From Candidatus Liptonbacteria bacterium (GTDB lineage Bacteria > Patescibacteriota > Minisyncoccia > UBA6257 > 2-01-FULL-56-20), in contig VGJV01000001.1 in NCBI GenBank assembly GCA_016867315.1, positions 1 to 34,862 of the forward strand: a stretch of 34,862 nucleotides of DNA, read 5' to 3'. Made by a program: the position numbers and the translations under genes. This document shows, piece by piece, positions 38-30,601 of this stretch (its first letter is position 1; every line of letters starts with the position of its first letter). The notes under the pieces were generated by a model. It was not told where the DNA came from and did not search any database. It worked only from the letters and a program-made list of their open reading frames with translations.

Positions 38-127
38 GGAGGCGTGGCCGAGTGGTTTAAGGCAGCATCCTGCTAAGATGTTAAGGGGGGAACCCCTTCG
101 AAGGTTCGAATCCTTCCGCCTCCGCCA
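38..127 (+). tRNA. tRNA-Ser (anticodon GCT), CCA encoded
   Basis: Full cloverleaf by eye. The 7-bp acceptor stem pairs GGAGGCG (38-44) with CGCCTCC (117-123). The D arm is GCC...GGC. The anticodon stem GCATC/GATGT (one G-T pair) carries loop CTGCTAA with anticodon GCT at 72-74. A long variable arm typical of Ser tRNAs follows, then T loop TTCGAAT. The discriminator is G and CCA (125-127) is encoded. An AT-rich block of accessory genes starts directly downstream, as at tRNA integration sites. Confidence 0.96.
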
Positions 128-251
128 GTTAGGAAATGAAGTCATTGGCTCGCCCGCTACGCGGGCTCGCCAGCCGTTTTTTGCCCTAAATTCAAGCCGT
201 TTTGAATTCAGTAAGGCCAAAAGCGGGCTTTTCTTTACGGAATCAAAATTT

Positions 252-300
252 TTTGATATCATAATCTTGAAAGCATATCTTATGTTTTGATGATATCAAA
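252..300. promoter_or_regulatory. Paired palindromic operator over the XRE gene promoter
   Basis: A perfect 11-bp inverted repeat lies at 252-262 (TTTGATATCAT) and 290-300 (ATGATATCAAA). Each arm contains the self-palindrome TGATATCA, with 37 bp between equivalent points. A possible -35 (TTGAAA, 267-272) sits between the arms, and the second arm overlaps the expected -10 (about 290-296). The XRE start codon is only 12 bases beyond. This fits two repressor dimer sites with autoregulation by the downstream XRE protein; the regulator is inferred. Confidence 0.6.
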
Positions 301-311
301 GTTTTGAAACT

Positions 312-509
312 ATGGCAACAATCGGCGAGAATATCAAAAAATACCGCAATAAACTTGGAATAACACAAGACGATTTGGTGAGGAAGTCCGGTGTGAAGCA
401 CACCACCCTTACCAAAATTGAGGGCGACTTTGTGCAAAAGCCAAGTGTTCAAGTTATAGCGAAAATTGCTAAGGCGTTGGGTGTTTCAGTCGAGGATTTA
501 TTAAAGTGA
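312..509 (+). CDS. XRE-family helix-turn-helix transcriptional regulator
   Basis: This 65-residue protein is almost entirely one Cro/CI-type HTH domain. Helix 1 is IGENIKKYRNKLGITQ, the turn and recognition helix are DDLVRKSGVKHTTLTKIE, and it ends in IAKALGVSVEDLLK. Such single-domain proteins are repressors of small accessory modules or antitoxin-like regulators. No good Shine-Dalgarno is seen, so the mRNA may have a very short leader. It is the first gene after tRNA-Ser and is followed 4 nt later by a VOC gene, so it probably heads an operon. Its codons are AT-rich compared with gyrB. Confidence 0.9.
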   Translation: MATIGENIKKYRNKLGITQDDLVRKSGVKHTTLTKIEGDFVQKPSVQVIAKIAKALGVSVEDLLK

Positions 510-513
510 TTTT

Positions 514-882
514 ATGAACAAAGGAATCAAGCATATTGAAATAGCTGTCTCTGATTTACAAAAATCTTTAGATTTTTATGACAAGCTCTTTGAGATTATT
601 GGCTGGGAAAAAGTAGCCAAAAACGGGTTCGTTGTTGGTAGTACAAAAGTTTATTTGAAAAAATGGGATTTCCAAAGAGGTAATACATTAGGTGCGCGTC
701 ACATTTGTTTTTGGGCTGATGACCGAGCAATGGTTGATAAAGTTGGTGAATATGTAAAAAATGTTGGAGTAAAAATGATTCGAGGCCCACTTGTTGTTAC
801 TGAATATTCGCCGGAATATTATACTGTCGATTTTTACGACCTCGATGGATATATGTTAGAGGTGGCGCATACCCCTAACTAA
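514..882 (+). CDS. VOC-superfamily (glyoxalase/bleomycin-resistance-like) protein
   Basis: 122 residues with the vicinal-oxygen-chelate pattern. The N-terminal beta strand and helix are IKHIEIAVSDLQKSLDFYDKLFEIIGW, there is a central histidine strand (GARHICFWADD), and the C-terminal module ends YTVDFYDLDGYMLEVAH. Candidate metal ligands are H8, the central H and the terminal E of MLEVAH. The substrate cannot be told from sequence. It follows the XRE gene by 4 nt and precedes the dCTP-deaminase-like gene, all co-directional and AT-rich, so this looks like one acquired operon. Confidence 0.85.
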   Translation: MNKGIKHIEIAVSDLQKSLDFYDKLFEIIGWEKVAKNGFVVGSTKVYLKKWDFQRGNTLGARHICFWADDRAMVDKVGEYVKNVGVKMIRGPLVVTEYSPEYYTVDFYDLDGYMLEVAHTPN

Positions 883-890
883 ATTAAAAT

Positions 891-1346
891 ATGATACTTT
901 CCGGCGAAACAATTAAGAAATATGTTCGAGAGGGACTATTTGAGATTAATCCTTTCAGCGAAAAAAATCTAAAAGGGGCAAGTTACACGTTTACTCTTGA
1001 TTCAAAACTTTTGCGATTACGAGATGGACAAAAACTACTACGAGCTGATAAAAAGCCTGATTATGAGGAAATTGAGATTTCTAATGATGGATATATTCTC
1101 AAGCCCGGTGAATTTATTTTGGGATTTACAAAAGAAAAACTGAAACTTAATGACAAGTTTGCTTGTTCATTAAGCTCTCGAGGTTCATGTGCGCAAATAG
1201 GTTTGGATATTTTGCTTGGATCCAGTTTTGCAGAGCCGGATACGAACAACTCACAGACTCTTGAAATTTTTAATGTTAGCGGTTCGTCAATAGTTTTGTT
1301 CCGAGATATGCCGATAGTTAAAGGAATTTTTATTCCCATTGATTAA
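891..1346 (+). CDS. dCTP deaminase/dUTPase-superfamily protein, possibly inactive
   Basis: 151 residues resembling dCTP deaminase (Dcd). It opens MILSGETIKKYVREG like Dcd, has a central SSRGSCAQIGL corresponding to the GRSSLARLGL substrate motif, and QTLEIFN corresponding to the VLEFYN strand that carries the catalytic Glu. The Glu and first Arg are kept. The Ser after that Arg is Gly here, and the second motif Arg is Gln. In E. coli Dcd those positions (S111, R115) matter for catalysis. The protein is also shorter than the usual 180-190 residues. It could be a divergent enzyme, a nucleotide-binding relative or decaying cargo. Confidence 0.75.
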   Translation: MILSGETIKKYVREGLFEINPFSEKNLKGASYTFTLDSKLLRLRDGQKLLRADKKPDYEEIEISNDGYILKPGEFILGFTKEKLKLNDKFACSLSSRGSCAQIGLDILLGSSFAEPDTNNSQTLEIFNVSGSSIVLFRDMPIVKGIFIPID

Positions 1347-1350
1347 AGAA

Positions 1351-1636
1351 TTTGCCGGCAAAGAAAAACTTGAAATCGTCCTTTCCGCTCCGGTTCAAGG
1401 CGAGGCGGGCGGAAGGGGGGTGTGGGGGGAATTCCGCCCGCCGAGCCCAGTCAGTTCCGTTCGGATATTTTCAAACAGACACCGCCAATAGAAACTTCGT
1501 CGTTTGAAAGGATTGCTCCGCGCGGCCGCGAGGCGGCCGCGCTCCGCAAAATGGTTCGCCGCTTCGCGGCGAAATGGCTGGCTGGGCAAAAATCAAAGAC
1601 GGCGGATTTGTTACGAACCCGAGGGTTCGTTCCGAT
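1351..1636 (+). repeat. Structured dispersed repeat, copy A
   Basis: A non-coding block that matches 29434-29664 (minus strand) in order and orientation. It opens with a 29-base segment (1351-1379) that is 26/29 identical to copy B (core CAAAGAAAAACTTGAAAT). Two perfect GC triloop hairpins follow: 1520-1542 (10-bp arms, loop GAG) and 1555-1573 (8-bp arms, loop TTC). The second runs into the shared string GCGGCGAAATGG. It ends in a T-arm-like GGGTTCGTTCCGATT, against GGGGTTCGACCCGATT in copy B. No convincing gene lies here; the open frames are compositional. Confidence 0.65.
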
Positions 1637-2573
1637 TGTACATTAATCAAGCGTTAGTTACACTTTTTCGGAGTTCTCGGATTTCTTTTTTGGTCTCATC
1701 GATGTATTTCTTGAGGAACGCAAAAGGAGAAATTCCCCCTAAAGACTGATGCGGTCGGAGATGATTGTAGTATCTGACAATGGCGTAAAGTATGCGTCGC
1801 CTCTCTTCTCTTGAACCGAAATGATGTTTGCGAAGCATTCCTTTGACAGTCTTGATCACTCGCTCTGCTTTGCCATTGGTTTGGGGATGGTACGGTTTGG
1901 TAAACTGCTGAGGAATGTTTTTCTGTTTGCAAAAATCTTTGAAAGCCCCTTTGAATTCCTTGCCGTTGTCCGAGTATATGCACTCCACTTCAAACGGCAG
2001 CATGGTCAGAGCTTCATCGAGTACAATGGCCGCGCTGTAGCTGGTCTGATCCGGCAAGATATCGGCAAACAAAACTCTAGAACAATCATCCACGAAGACA
2101 TACAAATACTCTCTTGGGGTCATCAGGGCTTCACCGGGGATGAGTGGCAAGACTGAGGTGTCAGTATGAACCATTTCTCCCGGATGCTTTTTAACATATC
2201 TGTTTGCTCTCTTTTCTCTTTTGGCAATCTTCTTTTCCAAAACTTTTTCGACCTTCAAAAGTTTCTTGAGCCCATACTCCAGAGTCCTGTATCTCATGTT
2301 TTTTGATGAGAAATTCCCGAACACTCCCAGTTTGGCTTTGTGGAACGCCTCGTACAGAGTTTTTCTAGAGACTCTGTAGTATTTGGCCAAATCCGTGACT
2401 CGATCTCCTTCTCTCCAACGACGATACGCTTCCCGTCGCTGATACGGCAACAATTTGGTATTCTTATGCATACAAAAAGTGCGTTAGCTATTAATGGTTG
2501 CAATACCAAAAATGCTACCGCGCTTTTTGTTTTTCAAAGAACAAAAGTGTTACTAACCCGTATTATATGTACA
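1637..2573. mobile_element. IS481-family-like insertion sequence, 937 bp
   Basis: One transposase gene lies between imperfect inverted repeats of about 31 bp. The left end reads TGTACAT...GTTAGTTACACTTTT. The right end, read on the minus strand, gives TGTACAT...GTTAGTAACACTTTT, with the middle nine bases poorly matched. TGT...ACA ends are typical of the IS481 family. No clear target duplication is visible: flanks are CCGAT and TTATC. A direct TGTACATTA occurs at both ends, but it arises from the palindromic tip. The left end is flush with repeat A and the right end lies inside a small membrane-protein gene. Confidence 0.85.
1647..2471 (-). CDS. IS481-type DDE transposase
   Basis: 274 residues. 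An N-terminal HTH (RRWREGDRVTDLAKYYRVSR) and a basic linker are followed by an rve integrase core. The DDE acidic residues are visible: D in EMVHTDTSVL, D in CIYSDNGKEF, E in TNGKAERVIKTVKG. The typical YNHLRPHQSLGGISPFAFL tail is present. The frame is intact and of normal length for IS481, so the element may be active. It catalyses cut-and-paste or copy-out movement of the surrounding IS; it starts about 100 bp inside the right end. Confidence 0.95.
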   Translation of the reverse strand: MHKNTKLLPYQRREAYRRWREGDRVTDLAKYYRVSRKTLYEAFHKAKLGVFGNFSSKNMRYRTLEYGLKKLLKVEKVLEKKIAKREKRANRYVKKHPGEMVHTDTSVLPLIPGEALMTPREYLYVFVDDCSRVLFADILPDQTSYSAAIVLDEALTMLPFEVECIYSDNGKEFKGAFKDFCKQKNIPQQFTKPYHPQTNGKAERVIKTVKGMLRKHHFGSREERRRILYAIVRYYNHLRPHQSLGGISPFAFLKKYIDETKKEIRELRKSVTNA

Positions 2574-2868: not shown

Positions 2869-4896
2869 ATGGCTAAAAAGGAGGAAAAAGCCAAGGAAAA
2901 GTCAGCTTACGGGGCGAAAGACATTCAGGTTCTTGAAGGGCTTGAACCCGTCCGTAAACGACCCGGAATGTACATCGGTTCCACGGGGACCGGTGGTTTC
3001 CATCACCTTATTTGGGAAATCGTCGACAACTCGATCGACGAAGCGATGGCGGGACGCGCGAAGAACATCACCGTAGAACTTCTGAAAGACGGACAGGTGA
3101 GCGTAACCGACGACGGCGCCGGAATTCCCGTGGAGACTCACCACCAAACTAAGAAATCGACGCTTGAGACGGTAATGACCGTACTCCATGCCGGAGGTAA
3201 ATTCGGCGGAGAAGGATATAAGGTATCGGGAGGACTCCATGGCGTGGGAGCTTCCGTCGTAAACGCCCTCTCCGATCACCTCAAAGCGGAGGTGTGGAGG
3301 GACGGCGGCCACTTCGTGCAGGAATATAAGCGAGGCGTGCCCTTGAGCAAGGTAAAAAAAATAGGCAGCGCCAATCATACGGGAACCAAGGTAACCTTTT
3401 TCCCTGATACCGAGATTTTCTCCGAACGGCAGTGGAACGAGAAGCGGATCATGGATCACCTTCGCCAGCAGGCGTATCTCACGAAGGGCGTGCGTATCAA
3501 TTTTTATGATTGGCGAGCGGAGACTCCCCTCTTCTACGGATTCTATTTCGAAGGCGGATTACTCTCGTTCGCGAAACACCTCACCTTCAACAAAAAGACC
3601 CTGCAGGAGGATGCCTTTCATGTGCACAAAAACCAGAACGAGCTTGAGGTAGAAGCGGCATTCCTTTATATAGACGACACGAAAACCGAAGAACTTTCTT
3701 TCGCAAACAACATTTATACCCCCGACGGAGGGATGCACCTCACCGGGTTCCGCTCTGCCCTCACCCGGACCTTGAACAACTACGCTCGGGCCGAAGGATA
3801 CCTCAAAGAAAAAGATGAGAACTTCACTGCGGACGACGTGCGCGAAGGACTCGTGGCCGTGCTTTCCATAAAACTCCGCGAACCGCAGTTCGAAGGGCAG
3901 ACCAAGGCCCGACTTGGGAACCCCGAGGCTCGGACCGCCACGGAAGCGGTCGTAAACGAAGCCCTTAAAGAATTCCTCGAGCGGCACCCGCAGGAATCCC
4001 GCCGCGTAGTAGAAAAGGTACTTTTGACTGCCAAAGCCCGCATTGCCGCCAAGGCCGCTAAAGAAACCGTACTTCGGAAGGGAGCGCTTGAAGGCCTTAC
4101 TCTTCCGGGGAAACTTGCCGACTGCACTTCGAAAGATGCCAGTGAATCCGAACTCTTCATTGTGGAGGGAGACTCTGCAGGTGGATCGGCCAAACAAGGA
4201 CGCGAGCGCCGCACACAGGCCATCTTCCCTCTCAAGGGGAAACCCTTAAACGTGGAGCGTGCCCGGATGGACAAGATGCTCGCGAACACCGAAATTCGTT
4301 CGCTTGTGATTGCAATCGGCACTGCGATCGCTGAGGAGTTCGACATGTCGAAGCTCCGCTATCACAAGATTGTTCTCATGAGTGATGCGGACGTCGACGG
4401 CGCGCACATTCGGACCCTGCTTCTCACGCTTTTTTACCGGCACTTCCGCCCCGTGGTGGATGGCGGATATCTCTACATCGCCCAACCTCCGCTCTATCGC
4501 ATTCAAGCGGGCAAAGAAATCCAATATGCCTGGAATGACGGGCAGAAAGATAAAATACTCAAAGAGTTGGTGAACGCAAAAGCAGCCAAGGCAAAAGCTA
4601 AAGGAAAAGAAGAAAAACTCCCCACCGAAGAGGAGGCAGCAGAAGCCGGCGGCTCAGAAGGCGGAGAGAAAATCGCCGGCGTGAATGTGCAACGCTATAA
4701 AGGTTTGGGAGAAATGAACCCCGAGCAACTTTGGGAGACCACGATGAATCCGGCGAATCGAATCCTTCGCCAGGTTACCGTAGCAGACGCTGCGGAAGCT
4801 GATCGCCTCTTCGATATTCTCATGGGAGACGAGGTGGAACCCCGGAAAAAATTCATTCAAACCCACGCGGCCTCCGTGCAAAACCTCGACATATAA
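2869..4896 (+). CDS. gyrB: DNA gyrase subunit B
   Basis: 675 residues. The GHKL ATPase domain shows EPVRKRPGMYIGS, EIVDNSIDEA, DDGAGIPV and GGLHGVGASVVNALS. The transducer domain follows, then the TOPRIM domain with FIVEGDSAGGSAKQGR and SDADVDGAHI, and a GyrB tail with QRYKGLGEMNPEQLW. A Lys/Ala/Glu-rich insert of about 35 residues (near 568-602) interrupts the TOPRIM region, a divergent lineage-type insertion. GyrB supplies ATP hydrolysis for negative supercoiling with GyrA, which is not in the window. An extended -10 (TGCTAGAAT, 2812-2820) lies about 50 bp upstream; no strong Shine-Dalgarno is seen. Confidence 0.98.
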   Translation: MAKKEEKAKEKSAYGAKDIQVLEGLEPVRKRPGMYIGSTGTGGFHHLIWEIVDNSIDEAMAGRAKNITVELLKDGQVSVTDDGAGIPVETHHQTKKSTLETVMTVLHAGGKFGGEGYKVSGGLHGVGASVVNALSDHLKAEVWRDGGHFVQEYKRGVPLSKVKKIGSANHTGTKVTFFPDTEIFSERQWNEKRIMDHLRQQAYLTKGVRINFYDWRAETPLFYGFYFEGGLLSFAKHLTFNKKTLQEDAFHVHKNQNELEVEAAFLYIDDTKTEELSFANNIYTPDGGMHLTGFRSALTRTLNNYARAEGYLKEKDENFTADDVREGLVAVLSIKLREPQFEGQTKARLGNPEARTATEAVVNEALKEFLERHPQESRRVVEKVLLTAKARIAAKAAKETVLRKGALEGLTLPGKLADCTSKDASESELFIVEGDSAGGSAKQGRERRTQAIFPLKGKPLNVERARMDKMLANTEIRSLVIAIGTAIAEEFDMSKLRYHKIVLMSDADVDGAHIRTLLLTLFYRHFRPVVDGGYLYIAQPPLYRIQAGKEIQYAWNDGQKDKILKELVNAKAAKAKAKGKEEKLPTEEEAAEAGGSEGGEKIAGVNVQRYKGLGEMNPEQLWETTMNPANRILRQVTVADAAEADRLFDILMGDEVEPRKKFIQTHAASVQNLDI

Positions 4897-6049: not shown

Positions 6050-6109
6050 ATGGTCGGCGGCGGCGCCTCTTTATTTTCATAGAAGCGGCGCTTGCGATTC
6101 TTGTCTCGC
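6050..6109 (+). repeat. Perfect 60-bp direct repeat, copy 1 (orphan)
   Basis: Identical base for base to 6276-6335, which codes for an internal piece of the PAP2 protein (GRRRRLFIFIEAALAILVS). This copy begins immediately after the terminator and ends 24 bp before the likely PAP2 ATG. It is therefore a displaced copy of coding sequence in the 5' leader. Perfect identity suggests a recent event or an assembly artefact. Confidence 0.9.
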
Positions 6110-6133: not shown

Positions 6134-6736
6134 ATGGAATTCAACACGCTGTTCGCCGAATGGCTTTGGAGCTTCAGTTTGAAAAACAGCTTCCTCGATT
6201 GGGAAATTATTTTTTTCTCTAAATATCTCCCCTACATTCTTATACTTTCCTTCCTAGGATTTCTTCTTGCCGAACATGGTCGGCGGCGGCGCCTCTTTAT
6301 TTTCATAGAAGCGGCGCTTGCGATTCTTGTCTCGCGCGGTCTTGTTACCGAAGGTATACGATTTTTTCATCATGTCGCCCGGCCTTTTGAGGTTTGGCAG
6401 GTTATCCCCCTTGTACCCGAGACGCTGGGGAATTCCTTTCCTTCCGGTCATGCAACATTCTATTTTGCCCTGGCCACAGTGCTCTTTCTTCGGAATCGAA
6501 AATGGGGAATCTGGTTCTTTATTTTCGCGATCATAAACGGCTTTGCCCGCATTGCCGCAGGCGTACACTGGCCGATGGATGTGGTGGGTGGAGCTGCAAT
6601 CGGAATCGCTTCTGCGGGAATAATTCACTTGCTTCTTAGACGGTCCTCGGAAGAGTTAATGCTTAGCGACATGCCCTCTGCATCTCCTCGTGAGGTTGAG
6701 TCGGATTTGCCTGCTCAGGAAAAAAATACTCTTTAA
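6134..6736 (+). CDS. PAP2-family membrane phosphatase
   Basis: About 200 residues from the ATG at 6134; a TTG at 6092 inside the upstream repeat is a less likely start. The PAP2 signatures are present: RFFHHVARP (the family Kx6RP with Arg for Lys), FPSGH, and ARIAAGVHWPMD (the SRx5Hx3D motif with Ala for Ser). Several membrane spans surround them. Likely substrates are undecaprenyl pyrophosphate (BcrC-like) or other lipid phosphates. The charged C-terminal tail is cytosolic or disordered. It is followed 2 nt later by a DoxX-like gene, so the two form an operon. Confidence 0.88.
   Translation: MEFNTLFAEWLWSFSLKNSFLDWEIIFFSKYLPYILILSFLGFLLAEHGRRRRLFIFIEAALAILVSRGLVTEGIRFFHHVARPFEVWQVIPLVPETLGNSFPSGHATFYFALATVLFLRNRKWGIWFFIFAIINGFARIAAGVHWPMDVVGGAAIGIASAGIIHLLLRRSSEELMLSDMPSASPREVESDLPAQEKNTL
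6276..6335 (+). repeat. Perfect 60-bp direct repeat, copy 2 (inside PAP2 gene)
   Basis: The coding copy of the repeat also found at 6050-6109, offset by 226 bp. It encodes the second membrane span and the arginine stretch before it. The sequences on either side of the two copies do not match. Confidence 0.9.
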
Positions 6737-20404: not shown

Positions 20405-21957
20405 CCTAAGCTCTTTCGGAGAACTCCGGTTTCGGTGATAAGGCCGGAGAGGCGTGACCCGCCGTCGCTTGCCTGCACTTCGCCGAAGGCTCCGGCAAGG
20501 CGGGCGCTATGGCGTGGCAAAGCAAAAACACTCGAAGATAGCCTCTCGTGCATCAGTTCGGATTTCGAGCGGGGGCCGAGCTCAAAACCGAATATCGACT
20601 CCACCACTCCCAAATCTTCTTCCACCCGCGCCCACGCGGGGTTTTGTTTAATAAGCCGCTTCAAATTTTCCTTATTCACGAAAGCCCCGGCGGTCTTCAG
20701 ATCGGCTTCTATATTGCGGTAATACCGGAAGAGAAGCTTCATCGCTTCGGGAGATAAGTCTTTCAAGGCGCGAAGGCCTAAAAATTCCGGCGGGATGCCA
20801 ATCGAATAGAACGCGGCGGTAAAGTTGATCGCACGCGGGAGTTCGAGTTTCCCCATTTGGCGCGCGTACCGCAAAAGACCAATGTGCTGGCGACGTTCCC
20901 GGCGACGCGGGACCGCCCGAAAGAACTGCTCCATGTCCCCCGCAATACTTTGGAGCGTGTGCGCATAGGAGGCTTCGAACTGTTTAATAATGGAAAGGAG
21001 CACGGCGCGGTCTTTTTCGGAGACGGAGCCGGGAGCGGATTTCGGCAAAAGAGTATTCAATTTTTCTACCGCAGCGGCGGCAGCTTCGAAGTTATAATCG
21101 TAGCGAAAGGCGGATTGAATCGTCACCGTGCGCACGCCTTTATATTCCGACGCAAAGGAGTCGATCGCATCGGGATTCAATCCCCCGCGGAACGGCAGGC
21201 TGCCCGCCCCCAAGATCGGGAACATCCGCACCTTTTCCCTCTCCCCCACTTCGCGGATATCTGAAAGAGCGATTTTGTTCGCGAGCACCGTCGAGACAAT
21301 TCCCGATACAAGCGCGGGATCGGAACGCGCAAGGAACGGCCGGATATATACGGGCTTGGATTTGAATTCTTTTTTGTGAAGATCGATGTAGCGCGCGAGA
21401 AGCGAGCCCACGCCGAGCTGACGCTCCACGTTTTCGACGAGCGGAATCATGTCTAGCTGTTCCATGTTTACCCCGCTCCGGTGATTGAAGGTCTCCGTCT
21501 TGAAACGCGCGAGTTTGCGGAAAGAACTTTTTATGTACATTAACTCTTCGGGTTTTTCGGTCATCGGCAGAATGAGTTCGAAGAGCGGGGGGACGTGAAA
21601 CTTCAAGTCTCGCGCGAAGTCTTCGGCGGTCAATACCACCATGAGCGCGCGAAGCAAGGAGTGGCCTTTTTCTTTCCATACGTTCGGAATCCGGAATGTA
21701 AGAAAAATATCTTTTCCTAATTTGTGTTTTTTAAAATATTCGTGGAATTCACCGAAAAGACGATCTACGACAGCCTCATCCGCATATTTCCCCTCCCAGT
21801 CCCACATGAACTCCCCTACTCCCAATTCTTCAAAACACTTCACGCATTCGAGCGTTTCTTCGCGGCTGCTTATGAATGCATCTCCTTGCTTGTCCCAAAA
21901 AGGCGCCCGGGCGTTGTCCGGGTGCTGGGTGGCCATGGCGGAGGGAATGTGGCGCAT
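20401..21957 (-). CDS. ppcA: Phosphoenolpyruvate carboxylase, archaeal type
   Basis: 518 residues, about half the length of the bacterial enzyme and right for the archaeal type. Hallmarks: MATQHPDNARAPFWDKQGD at the N-terminus, the GEFMWDWEGKYADE segment, FLTFRIPNVWKEKG, ILPMTEKPEEL, and GAGSLPFRGGLNP, which holds active-site residues. It carboxylates PEP with bicarbonate to oxaloacetate. The aspartate-type aminotransferase nearby could use that product, though this is only context. Its start codon abuts a heptamer array and has no Shine-Dalgarno. Confidence 0.95.
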   Translation of the reverse strand: MRHIPSAMATQHPDNARAPFWDKQGDAFISSREETLECVKCFEELGVGEFMWDWEGKYADEAVVDRLFGEFHEYFKKHKLGKDIFLTFRIPNVWKEKGHSLLRALMVVLTAEDFARDLKFHVPPLFELILPMTEKPEELMYIKSSFRKLARFKTETFNHRSGVNMEQLDMIPLVENVERQLGVGSLLARYIDLHKKEFKSKPVYIRPFLARSDPALVSGIVSTVLANKIALSDIREVGEREKVRMFPILGAGSLPFRGGLNPDAIDSFASEYKGVRTVTIQSAFRYDYNFEAAAAAVEKLNTLLPKSAPGSVSEKDRAVLLSIIKQFEASYAHTLQSIAGDMEQFFRAVPRRRERRQHIGLLRYARQMGKLELPRAINFTAAFYSIGIPPEFLGLRALKDLSPEAMKLLFRYYRNIEADLKTAGAFVNKENLKRLIKQNPAWARVEEDLGVVESIFGFELGPRSKSELMHERLSSSVFALPRHSARLAGAFGEVQASDGGSRLSGLITETGVLRKSLG

Positions 21958-27021: not shown

Positions 27022-27906
27022 CTACCATCCGCCGCTTGCCCCTCCGCCGCCAGAGCGGCCGCCACCGAACCCCCCGAAGCCCCCGCCTCCCCATCTCCCT
27101 CCCCTTCCTCCGCCACCAATCCACCACGGCGGCTTGTGTCCCGTTGCCACACTGTGCTGGTATGCGTGCGAGACGATGTAGTCGAAAAGAAGCCCCAAAG
27201 GAGTAAGGATTGCGATTGCCAATATTCCTGCATAGACAAAGCCGAAAAATAACCCAAGTGCCACTCCGAGCACTCCCCCGATTACACCTCCTAACCACCA
27301 GGATTTGGAGCGGCTCAAAATACTCGCGATCCACATTGGAATCGTGAGGATAACCCAAAACCAATCTACGAATATTTCCGGATTAGGACCTCTTCCTTTG
27401 GTGGCCGTGGGGAGTACCTCTCCTTTTACCGCGGCAATGATTTTGTCCGTCGTGCGTTCTAATCCTGTCGCATAGTTCCCTTCGCGAAACGCGGGTAGAG
27501 CTTCGTTCTGAATAATCCAGTAACTTTGCGCATCCGTGAGCGCACCTTCGAGCCCATATCCCACTTCGATACGAACTTTTCGATCATCGCGGGAGACCAC
27601 CACGAGCACCCCGTTATCGAGTCCTTGCTTCCCTACTTTCCACGCCTCGAAAAGATCCACTGCATATTCCTCTACGGTATCGCCGCCTAAATTCGGTACT
27701 AACGCGAGCGCAATCTCATGGCCGGATTCTTTGGCGAAATTCGAAAGTTTAATTTCGAGAGAGTTCTTTGAAGCTGCATCGAGAAGATTAGCGTAATCAT
27801 TCACGAATCCGGACGGCGCGGGAAATTCTACATGCGCCTTCACCGAAGGCGCAGCAAGTAGCGAGTAGCATGTAGCAAGTAGCAGGAATACTGAAAACTT
27901 TTTCAT
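27022..27906 (-). CDS. TPM-domain (YgcG-like) secreted membrane protein with Gly-rich tail
   Basis: About 294 residues. Signal peptide MKKFSVFLLLATCYSLLAAP. TPM domain FVNDYANLLDAASKNSLEIKLSNF, ...HEIALALVPNLGGDTVEEYAVDLFEAWKVGKQGLDNGVLVVV, ...RKVRIEVGYGLEGALTDA. Two or three spans follow, then a tail of GGGG/GGFGG repeats. TPM proteins such as YgcG sit in the envelope and often accompany LemA, as here. Part of the signal peptide is encoded by a TAGCGAG-class heptamer array. An upstream array separates it from lemA. Confidence 0.92.
   Translation of the reverse strand: MKKFSVFLLLATCYSLLAAPSVKAHVEFPAPSGFVNDYANLLDAASKNSLEIKLSNFAKESGHEIALALVPNLGGDTVEEYAVDLFEAWKVGKQGLDNGVLVVVSRDDRKVRIEVGYGLEGALTDAQSYWIIQNEALPAFREGNYATGLERTTDKIIAAVKGEVLPTATKGRGPNPEIFVDWFWVILTIPMWIASILSRSKSWWLGGVIGGVLGVALGLFFGFVYAGILAIAILTPLGLLFDYIVSHAYQHSVATGHKPPWWIGGGGRGGRWGGGGFGGFGGGRSGGGGASGGW
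27851..27886. repeat. Heptamer array, TAGCGAG class, inside a signal-peptide coding region
   Basis: Units AGCAAGT, AGCGAGT, AGCATGT, AGCAAGT, AGCAGG on the plus strand encode LLLATCYSLLA of the TPM protein on the minus strand. A 26-bp segment (27857-27882) is identical to 33919-33944 upstream of argH. Confidence 0.8.
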
Positions 27907-29433: not shown

Positions 29434-29664
29434 AATCGGGTCGAACCCCTGCGGGAATGGATTTTGGATTTGAAACAAGCAGCCCATCCCTCGCGTCTTT
29501 TCGGTTTGCTCTGCGCCGCCCCCTTCCATTTCGCCGCTTGGCGGCGTGCATATCTCCCCGCCCATTCATCCGCCGCGCTTCGCGCGGCTCAGAAAATGGG
29601 AGTGAATAAATTCGGAGCGGCTCCGCCGCACATTAACAATTTCAAGTTTTTCTTTGGTGGCAAA
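29434..29664 (-). repeat. Structured dispersed repeat, copy B
   Basis: Minus-strand counterpart of repeat A (1351-1636). It begins at 29664 with TTTGCC..CAAAGAAAAACTTGAAAT. Triloop hairpins follow at 29617-29629 (5 bp), 29572-29588 (7 bp) and 29532-29546 (6 bp), the last running into GCGGCGAAATGG as in copy A. It ends at GGGGTTCGACCCGATT. Order and spacing of the elements match copy A, while the sequence between them has diverged. Confidence 0.65.
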
Positions 29665-29674
29665 TAAATCAGAT

Positions 29675-30379
29675 CTATTTCACTTTGAGTGAAAGAAGAA
29701 TTTTTGTAAAAAATTCTTCTTCTTGATTCGGAGAAATAATTCCTGGCAAAGCGAGATACTTTTGATTATCTGTAACCGCGGAGCTAAGTTCGGTAATAAG
29801 AGAGCGAGTAATAACCAATGTTTTATTGGAAGAAATAGTTAGATAGTAAACATATGATCCGCAACCTTCTATTCCTTGCATAATTTTATATCCGCTCCAC
29901 GAGCCGAGTGTAAAAGGATTAGCGGAGACATAATCCCATCCAGGGTATTGGCTACCCTGCACAAAAGTTTTTAGATTCTGGTTGATGAGTTTAATTGAAA
30001 CACCAAAATCGTTCAGTCTCTCGAGTGGAGGAGCGTCGCCCTTAAAATCGCACACATCAGAATGCTTGTAAGCAATGGAGTGATCTAAGTTAACGGCTTC
30101 ACCGTTGCGTTCCACAGAAACTATAGGTGGGTATTCAAACGCAAGTTGAGCATCAGTATATTTTTTCCATCCAGAGTTAATAGTTTGAACTGGAGGTGTC
30201 TGATTAGGGTTAGTTGGCGTAGACGTAACTGGAGTAATTGGTTCATTATCATTATCGGTAATAACGGGAGAAGTGGCAGGTTCTGTCGTCGGTTTGCGTA
30301 AAGCAAAATATCCAGTTGTCCCAGCGAGGATAACAACTAAAATTATTAAAATTATGTTTGCAAAACCTTTCTTATTCAT
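29675..30379 (-). CDS. Signal-anchored extracytoplasmic protein, function unknown
   Basis: 234 residues. The N-terminal MNKKGFANIILIILVVILAGTTGYFAL is a signal anchor with a GF junction resembling a type IV pilin-like leader, though the usual Glu at +5 is absent. A Pro/Thr-rich linker (PATSPV...TPTNPNQTPPVQ) is followed by a beta-rich domain with WKKYTDAQLAFEYP and two or more Cys that could form a disulfide. Unknown family. Visibly AT-rich against its neighbours, lying between tRNA-Ser(GGA) and repeat B, so likely acquired. Confidence 0.75.
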   Translation of the reverse strand: MNKKGFANIILIILVVILAGTTGYFALRKPTTEPATSPVITDNDNEPITPVTSTPTNPNQTPPVQTINSGWKKYTDAQLAFEYPPIVSVERNGEAVNLDHSIAYKHSDVCDFKGDAPPLERLNDFGVSIKLINQNLKTFVQGSQYPGWDYVSANPFTLGSWSGYKIMQGIEGCGSYVYYLTISSNKTLVITRSLITELSSAVTDNQKYLALPGIISPNQEEEFFTKILLSLKVK

Positions 30380-30513
30380 AGTGTTTTTGTTACTAAAATT
30401 TATTTATTTCGACTTAATAAAATTGATAAAAATTTCTTTTGCCCTTACAAAATATGGTTCGAGCCGATTTGTTTTCAAATTCTTTGGCAGTTTAATTATA
30501 ACATCTTTTCTAT

Positions 30514-30601
30514 TGGCGGAGGGGGAGAGATTCGAACTCTCGATACCTTGCGGTATGCCGCCTTTCCAAGACGGTGCACTAGACCACTATGCGACCCCTC
30601 C
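30514..30601 (-). tRNA. tRNA-Ser (anticodon GGA), CCA encoded
   Basis: On the minus strand: acceptor GGAGGGG (30601-30595) pairs with CCCCTCC. Anticodon stem CCGTC/GGCGG with loop TTGGAAA gives anticodon GGA at 30567-30565. The long variable arm ATACCGCAAGGTAT is typical of tRNA-Ser. T loop TTCGAAT, discriminator G, and CCA encoded at 30516-30514. It follows the UMP kinase stop by 5 nt and may be co-transcribed with it. Confidence 0.96.

Follow-up and report, generated by a model that had tools for sequence, protein, structure and literature searches.

Two islands behind tRNA-Ser genes in a Liptonbacteria contig as probable recombinase-less members of a family of small serine-recombinase elements in Patescibacteria

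Two small islands, each lying exactly 3' of a tRNA-Ser gene with its cargo reading in the direction of the tRNA, have been delimited in a 34,862-nt stretch of contig VGJV01000001.1 from a Candidatus Liptonbacteria bacterium (this whole stretch is called the window below). Very probably they belong, as integrated elements without autonomy, to a family of small integrative elements that extends through the phylum Patescibacteria and uses a serine recombinase at the 3' ends of tRNA genes; we give this reading a probability of about 0.88. The anatomy of the elements, their junctions, the variable occupancy of their sites and the target specificity of the recombinase clades were established by comparing sequences among relatives. 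Table 1 gives the coordinates.

Table 1. Features of the two tRNA-Ser islands in the window
Feature	Position	Strand	Remarks
tRNA-Ser(GCT)	38-127	+	Target of island 1; ARAGORN
Insertion point at tRNA-Ser(GCT)			Its final nt, CCGCCA; junction compared with relatives
Island 1, integrative element without recombinase, LE to RE	128-1487	+	LE GTTAGGAAATG, RE TTCGGATATTTTCAAACAGACACCGCCA
Island 1 LE	128-172	+	GTTAGGAAATGAAGTC, then hairpin
XRE-type HTH protein, island 1 cargo	312-509	+	Pfam HTH_3, 4e-14
VOC/glyoxalase-fold protein, island 1 cargo	514-882	+	Pfam Glyoxalase, 5e-10
dCTP deaminase-like protein, island 1 cargo	891-1346	+	Pfam DCD, 5e-24
N-core, island 1 (36 nt)	1345-1380	+	AAAGAATTTGCCGGCAAAGAAAAACTTGAAATCGTC; copy of serine-recombinase codons ~29-44
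Island 1 RE	1460-1487	+	Final nt copy the tRNA tail CCGCCA
gyrB	2869-4896	+	Conserved neighbour by which the orthologous tRNA-Ser(GCT) site of relatives is recognised
tRNA-Ser(GGA)	30601-30514	-	Target of island 2; ARAGORN
Island 2, integrative element without recombinase	30513-29223	-
Cargo leader, island 2	30493-30448	-	Fused recombinase N- and C-terminal coding fragments (AAACTGCCAAAGAA...CAAATCGGCTCGAACCATATTTTG)
Secreted/membrane-anchored protein, island 2 cargo	30379-29675	-	MNKKGFANIILIILVVILAG...
N-core, island 2	29668-29633	-	ATTTGCCACCAAAGAAAAACTTGAAATTGTT
Island 2 RE	29249-29223	-	TTCGAGCTATTTTAAGAATACACCGCA; identical RE in congener G002
Ser-type RE/LE junction			CACCGCCA followed by GTTGGAAT...

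The architecture expected from the original prediction -- a tRNA-Ser, co-directional AT-rich cargo and an end repeat oriented like the tRNA -- is borne out by ARAGORN, by the GC content of the cargo (36.5% and 38.7%, versus 49.1% for the window, with 0 of 133 windows of the same size as low) and by the common core of the two repeats. The outer limits have had to be moved. Island 2 is longer than had been proposed, ending at about 29223 instead of 29434, because an RE, identified by comparison with the right ends of relatives, lies there, and island 1 ends at about 1487 instead of 1636. The LE of island 2 at the tRNA tail is merely a short AATAGAAAAG, that of island 1 being the sequence given in Table 1; from it, GTTAGGAAAT... 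is found again behind tRNA-Ser at three other loci (L162, L076 and L301). The DDE transposase gene (rve/rve_3; 1647-2471, minus strand) between the RE of island 1 and gyrB is probably an insertion sequence acquired next to the island.

The core common to the repeats of both islands is 30 nt long, 27/30 identical (1350-1379, plus strand, and 29665-29636, minus strand), and has in each the direction of its own tRNA. The 17 nt at its heart are present in the genome in exactly two places, and the number of core matches in the window was reached by no shuffle. The core is present in 157 of 384 genomes of the class, terminating similar islands, and exact matches are found in other Patescibacteria, with almost all of the island 1 repeat (repeat A) present in a Sungbacteria record (L013). 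Among relatives it frequently occurs in outward-pointing pairs; in those examined that have an intact recombinase gene, one core lies in codons ~31-39 of a large serine recombinase (...EFAAKEKLEIV...) and the other after the cargo. The constant part of what had been described as a structured repeat is accordingly some 36 nt copied from recombinase coding sequence; after these come hairpins and a conserved RE (TTCGGACTAATTCAAGAATACTGCACCA or variants). These outward pairs, about 1-1.6 kb apart, had also raised the suspicion of a transposon with terminal inverted repeats, which was dropped, one core of each pair being recombinase codons. A structured-RNA reading of the repeats was rejected as well, the Rfam matches being tRNAs alone, and so was the core as a universal recombination site, since the Ala element of the islands' own genome has no such repeat of 25 nt or more. 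In a second group (L024, L028, L029 and L021) a ATCCTTCGCTAAGGCTACGGAGTGCA-type hairpin stands before the core in place of the recombinase codons.

Complete members of the family carry a recombinase with the three domains of the large serine integrases; in that of L073, PF00239, PF07508 and PF13408, that is, Resolvase, Recombinase and zinc-ribbon domains, are all above their cut-offs. Most of some 80 loci have one order, with a tRNA, then either an antisense recombinase and cargo or cargo alone, then core and RE on the strand of the tRNA, the elements measuring from about 1.3 kb (cargo only) to about 3 kb. Sequence was sufficient for 61 right-end cores. In 49 of them a tRNA on the same strand lies no more than 3.2 kb upstream, and 12 have no tRNA in that distance; an opposite-strand tRNA is found in 2. 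The matched C-terminal end of the antisense recombinase is usually 50-140 bp from the tRNA. A full-length recombinase lies antisense directly behind a tRNA at 41 of 53 testable loci in the class and the islands' own genome and at 23 of 27 in the phylum, or 64 of 80 together, the chance rate estimated from tRNA density being about 1%; at several of the exceptions a tRNA-like or masked tRNA sequence is present. At least seven large serine recombinases of nearly full length are encoded in the genome itself, and six of these lie behind a tRNA; antisense recombinases stand behind Pro, Ala, Tyr, Leu, Leu and Glu tRNAs, with a truncated one behind Thr. Neither island has a recombinase of its own, none matching anywhere in the window, in agreement with the original prediction, which saw no integrase in either. 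A Ser-clade recombinase was not found in the genome either, the best matches to a Ser-type query being 45-47% identical and located at other tRNAs; the matching enzyme is present in congener G002 (L215, from 11104). Viral contigs yielded only two relatives of the recombinase, both distant (31-32% identical).

The final nucleotides of the RE copy the tail of the element's own tRNA -- CACCGCCA for Ser, CTGCACCA for tRNAs ending in GCACCA, CTCTGCCA for Glu, CACAGC for Gln and GACCAC for Ala -- over 4-8 nt, and this agreement was equalled in 0 of 2000 trials in which the tRNAs were shuffled among elements. On a tree of 67 recombinases the Ser targets require 4 changes, versus 13.8 under shuffling, and 0 of 500 shuffles gave so low a number; Gln targets are clustered as well, and Glu, Ala and Pro more weakly. 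Because clades cluster by target in this way while targets with the tail CACCA are mixed on the tree, the recombinase seems to read the acceptor end and not the anticodon. Assigned by their ends only, the islands are placed as recombinase-less members of two Ser-specific lineages, island 1 (core ...ATCGTC, RE TTCGGATATTTTCAAACAGACACCGCCA) resembling that of L072 and island 2 (core ...ATTGTT, RE TTCGAGCTATTTTAAGAATACACCGCA) that of L074, congener G002. The idea of a small integrative unit on the 3' side of tRNA-Ser genes has thus held for the side of the tRNA, the exchangeable cargo and the constant RE, but across the family most tRNA isoacceptors serve as targets, and only these two lineages are specific for Ser.

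In the mechanism proposed here, a large serine recombinase with the three domains named above would join a circular element, carrying RE next to LE, to the 3' end of a tRNA gene. Crossover would fall within the final 5-6 nt of the tRNA (discriminator plus CCA), so that the tRNA would stay whole and those nucleotides would reappear at the RE. The recombinase clades differ by acceptor end, with CGCCA for Ser, TGCCA for Glu and AGCCA for Gln, the CACCA end being common to Leu, Arg, Ile, Tyr, Phe and Val targets. From the tRNA outward, complete elements consist of LE, antisense recombinase, inverted attP-like junction, cargo, N-core and RE, then the flank. The window islands retain LE, cargo, N-core and RE but have lost the recombinase, and would therefore rely on one provided in trans, a mobilisation that is plausible; like the circular form, the reaction and its direction, it is something that we infer.

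The inverted junction of the complete elements is an intact RE/LE sequence about 130 bp upstream of the recombinase start, lying between recombinase and cargo in most of them; it is absent from both window islands, as expected from the absence of the recombinase module. Its LE part equals the LE at the tRNA, with arms of 45-158 nt that mostly start 3-7 nt inside the tRNA and are 99-100% identical in four elements of the islands' own genome, and its RE part is closest to the RE of its own element in 12 of 15 cases. Because both parts match the element's own ends, the complete element is interpreted as two modules, each between inverted copies of one end. Double integration through both attP-like junctions was considered and is unsupported as a common event: it predicts a recombinase between two convergent tRNAs, which was not found, and equal use of the junctions should give random orientation, yet among 116 recombinases a single one turns its 5' side towards a tRNA (L287, tRNA-Tyr, reading away from it). 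Simple attP x attB integration does not account for an N-core within the recombinase gene or for the inverted second junction, and the latter makes a testable puzzle. One possibility, put forward tentatively and rather less likely to be right than wrong, is a phylum-wide two-module system that radiated over tRNA acceptor ends, in which a recombinase module between inverted LEs and a cargo module between inverted REs are joined by the intact inverted attP, and in which cargo modules can be separated, mobilised in trans, stacked in tandem and redistributed among tRNA genes. If true, it would be the serine-recombinase counterpart of integrons and tycheposons.

The cargo of related elements is mostly one to three small, diverse genes per unit. 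That of island 2 has no Pfam match; its relatives are cargo at tRNA-Leu (L158, E 1e-12) and tRNA-Met (L166, E 3e-10), and its prepilin-like start (MN.xKGFaNI.LIVLVVVLAG), common also to L144, L146, L158 and L166, suggests a recurrent family of secreted or surface cargo. Fused fragments like the leader of island 2 are found in L024, L133, L141, L147, L159, L160, L166 and G002, and in L131, L141, L174 and L024 cargo units stand in tandem with the N-core of one fused to a recombinase-derived leader, L024 having three direct N-cores; together these suggest that recombinase genes gave rise to cargo modules by internal deletion. Five contigs of the islands' genome (G000; C2, C4, C10, C11 and C12, loci L207, L209, L211, L212 and L213) break off some 270-720 bp upstream of a recombinase on the tRNA side, as would happen with cargo that is repeated or that varies within the population.

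Integron gene cassettes likewise pair one small, diverse gene per unit with a structured repeat, and depend on IntI and an attI platform. The small cargo genes, the structured repeat after them and the occasional tandem units with their core-leader fusions would suit an integron-like system in which the repeat is an attC-like site and the cargo genes are cassettes gathered at a tRNA. We consider this improbable: the recombinase at these loci is a serine and not a tyrosine (IntI) enzyme, there seems to be no IntI or attI platform here, each end is coupled to the tail of a tRNA, and most loci hold a single unit.

Genes for tRNAs are the classic places at which mobile DNA inserts. By the accepted rule, the integrases that use them are of the tyrosine and not of the serine type. 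The Islander paper of 2014 knew only tyrosine integrases, and none of the serine type, to target tRNA genes (PMC4383910), a 2023 survey of Mycobacterium prophages reported tyrosine integrases at tRNA sites but a serine-integrase island away from them (PMC10654092), and a review of mobilizable elements describes site-specific serine elements as interrupting the genes into which they insert (PMC5704250). Like the Islander/TIGER tyrosine islands (PMC4383910), the present elements use the tRNA 3' end as attB, leave the tRNA intact and repeat its tail at the far end with cargo between, and this, with the foreign composition of the cargo, would also be expected of remnants of classical tRNA islands left by a tyrosine integrase, the enzyme named in the original prediction. 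Such an origin is highly improbable, for no tyrosine integrase is seen in the elements, the sole tyrosine recombinase of the genome (a PF00589 protein at C1:217762-218274) lies outside the islands, large serine recombinases occupy the tRNA junctions instead, and the repeated tail is merely 4-8 nt. The family differs from Islander/TIGER islands further in that the antisense recombinase ORF ends at or in the tRNA, and in its size. With the large serine integrase elements (phage phiC31/Bxb1-type enzymes and Tn4451-type IMEs; PMC5704250) it shares the three domains and a short junction core, but it sits at tRNA 3' ends and not in protein genes or intergenic sites, and has the second, inverted attP-like junction inside.

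No later report of tRNA-targeting serine integrases, or of any for Patescibacteria, was found in the literature searched, the coverage of which was incomplete, so that priority is not certain. Tycheposons, the small tRNA-associated cargo elements of Prochlorococcus, seem similar in layout, many of them also being without an integrase, but belong to a different phylum and use a tyrosine recombinase. Serine recombinases at tRNA ends across Patescibacteria, in clades that follow the acceptor end, would run against the rule. They would give these organisms, whose genomes are very small, a way of gaining genes, and would make up a natural collection of enzymes graded in their specificity for conserved tRNA ends.

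In several family members a tRNA-Ser(GCT) lies upstream of gyrB, and there the proposed elements can be compared at one orthologous site. It holds the cargo-only element in the islands' genome, an autonomous element with HAD-hydrolase-like cargo in G002, and a different element RE in G001, where the contig stops before the tRNA; in two further family members (G019 and G025) the tRNA is immediately followed by other genes and an element is absent. Three congeners thus have different elements and two family members none, so that the variation anticipated at tRNA-Ser flanks was found at this site, as different content or as emptiness, but a base-exact empty site for the window islands was not found among the genomes compared, one per species and near species included. 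At tRNA-Ser(GGA) in G001, G002, G003 and G005 there is no recognisable element end within the first 260 nt. That the islands are static relics, genes accumulated behind tRNAs by chance with a shared terminator-like or structured RNA element as the repeat, would suit hairpin-rich repeats following the cargo stop codon, but is the least credible reading of all, given repeats that match nothing in Rfam, hold recombinase coding sequence and pair with tRNA tails, and a site of varying occupancy with the recombinase-bearing form in G002.

Two other kinds of repeat were seen in the window. A perfect 60-bp direct duplication lies at 6050-6109 and 6276-6335, 226 bp apart, and low-complexity TAGAAAGTAGAAA-type repeats are dispersed intergenically at 21954, 24500, 24911, 25684, 26703 and 33905, and inverted at 27906.
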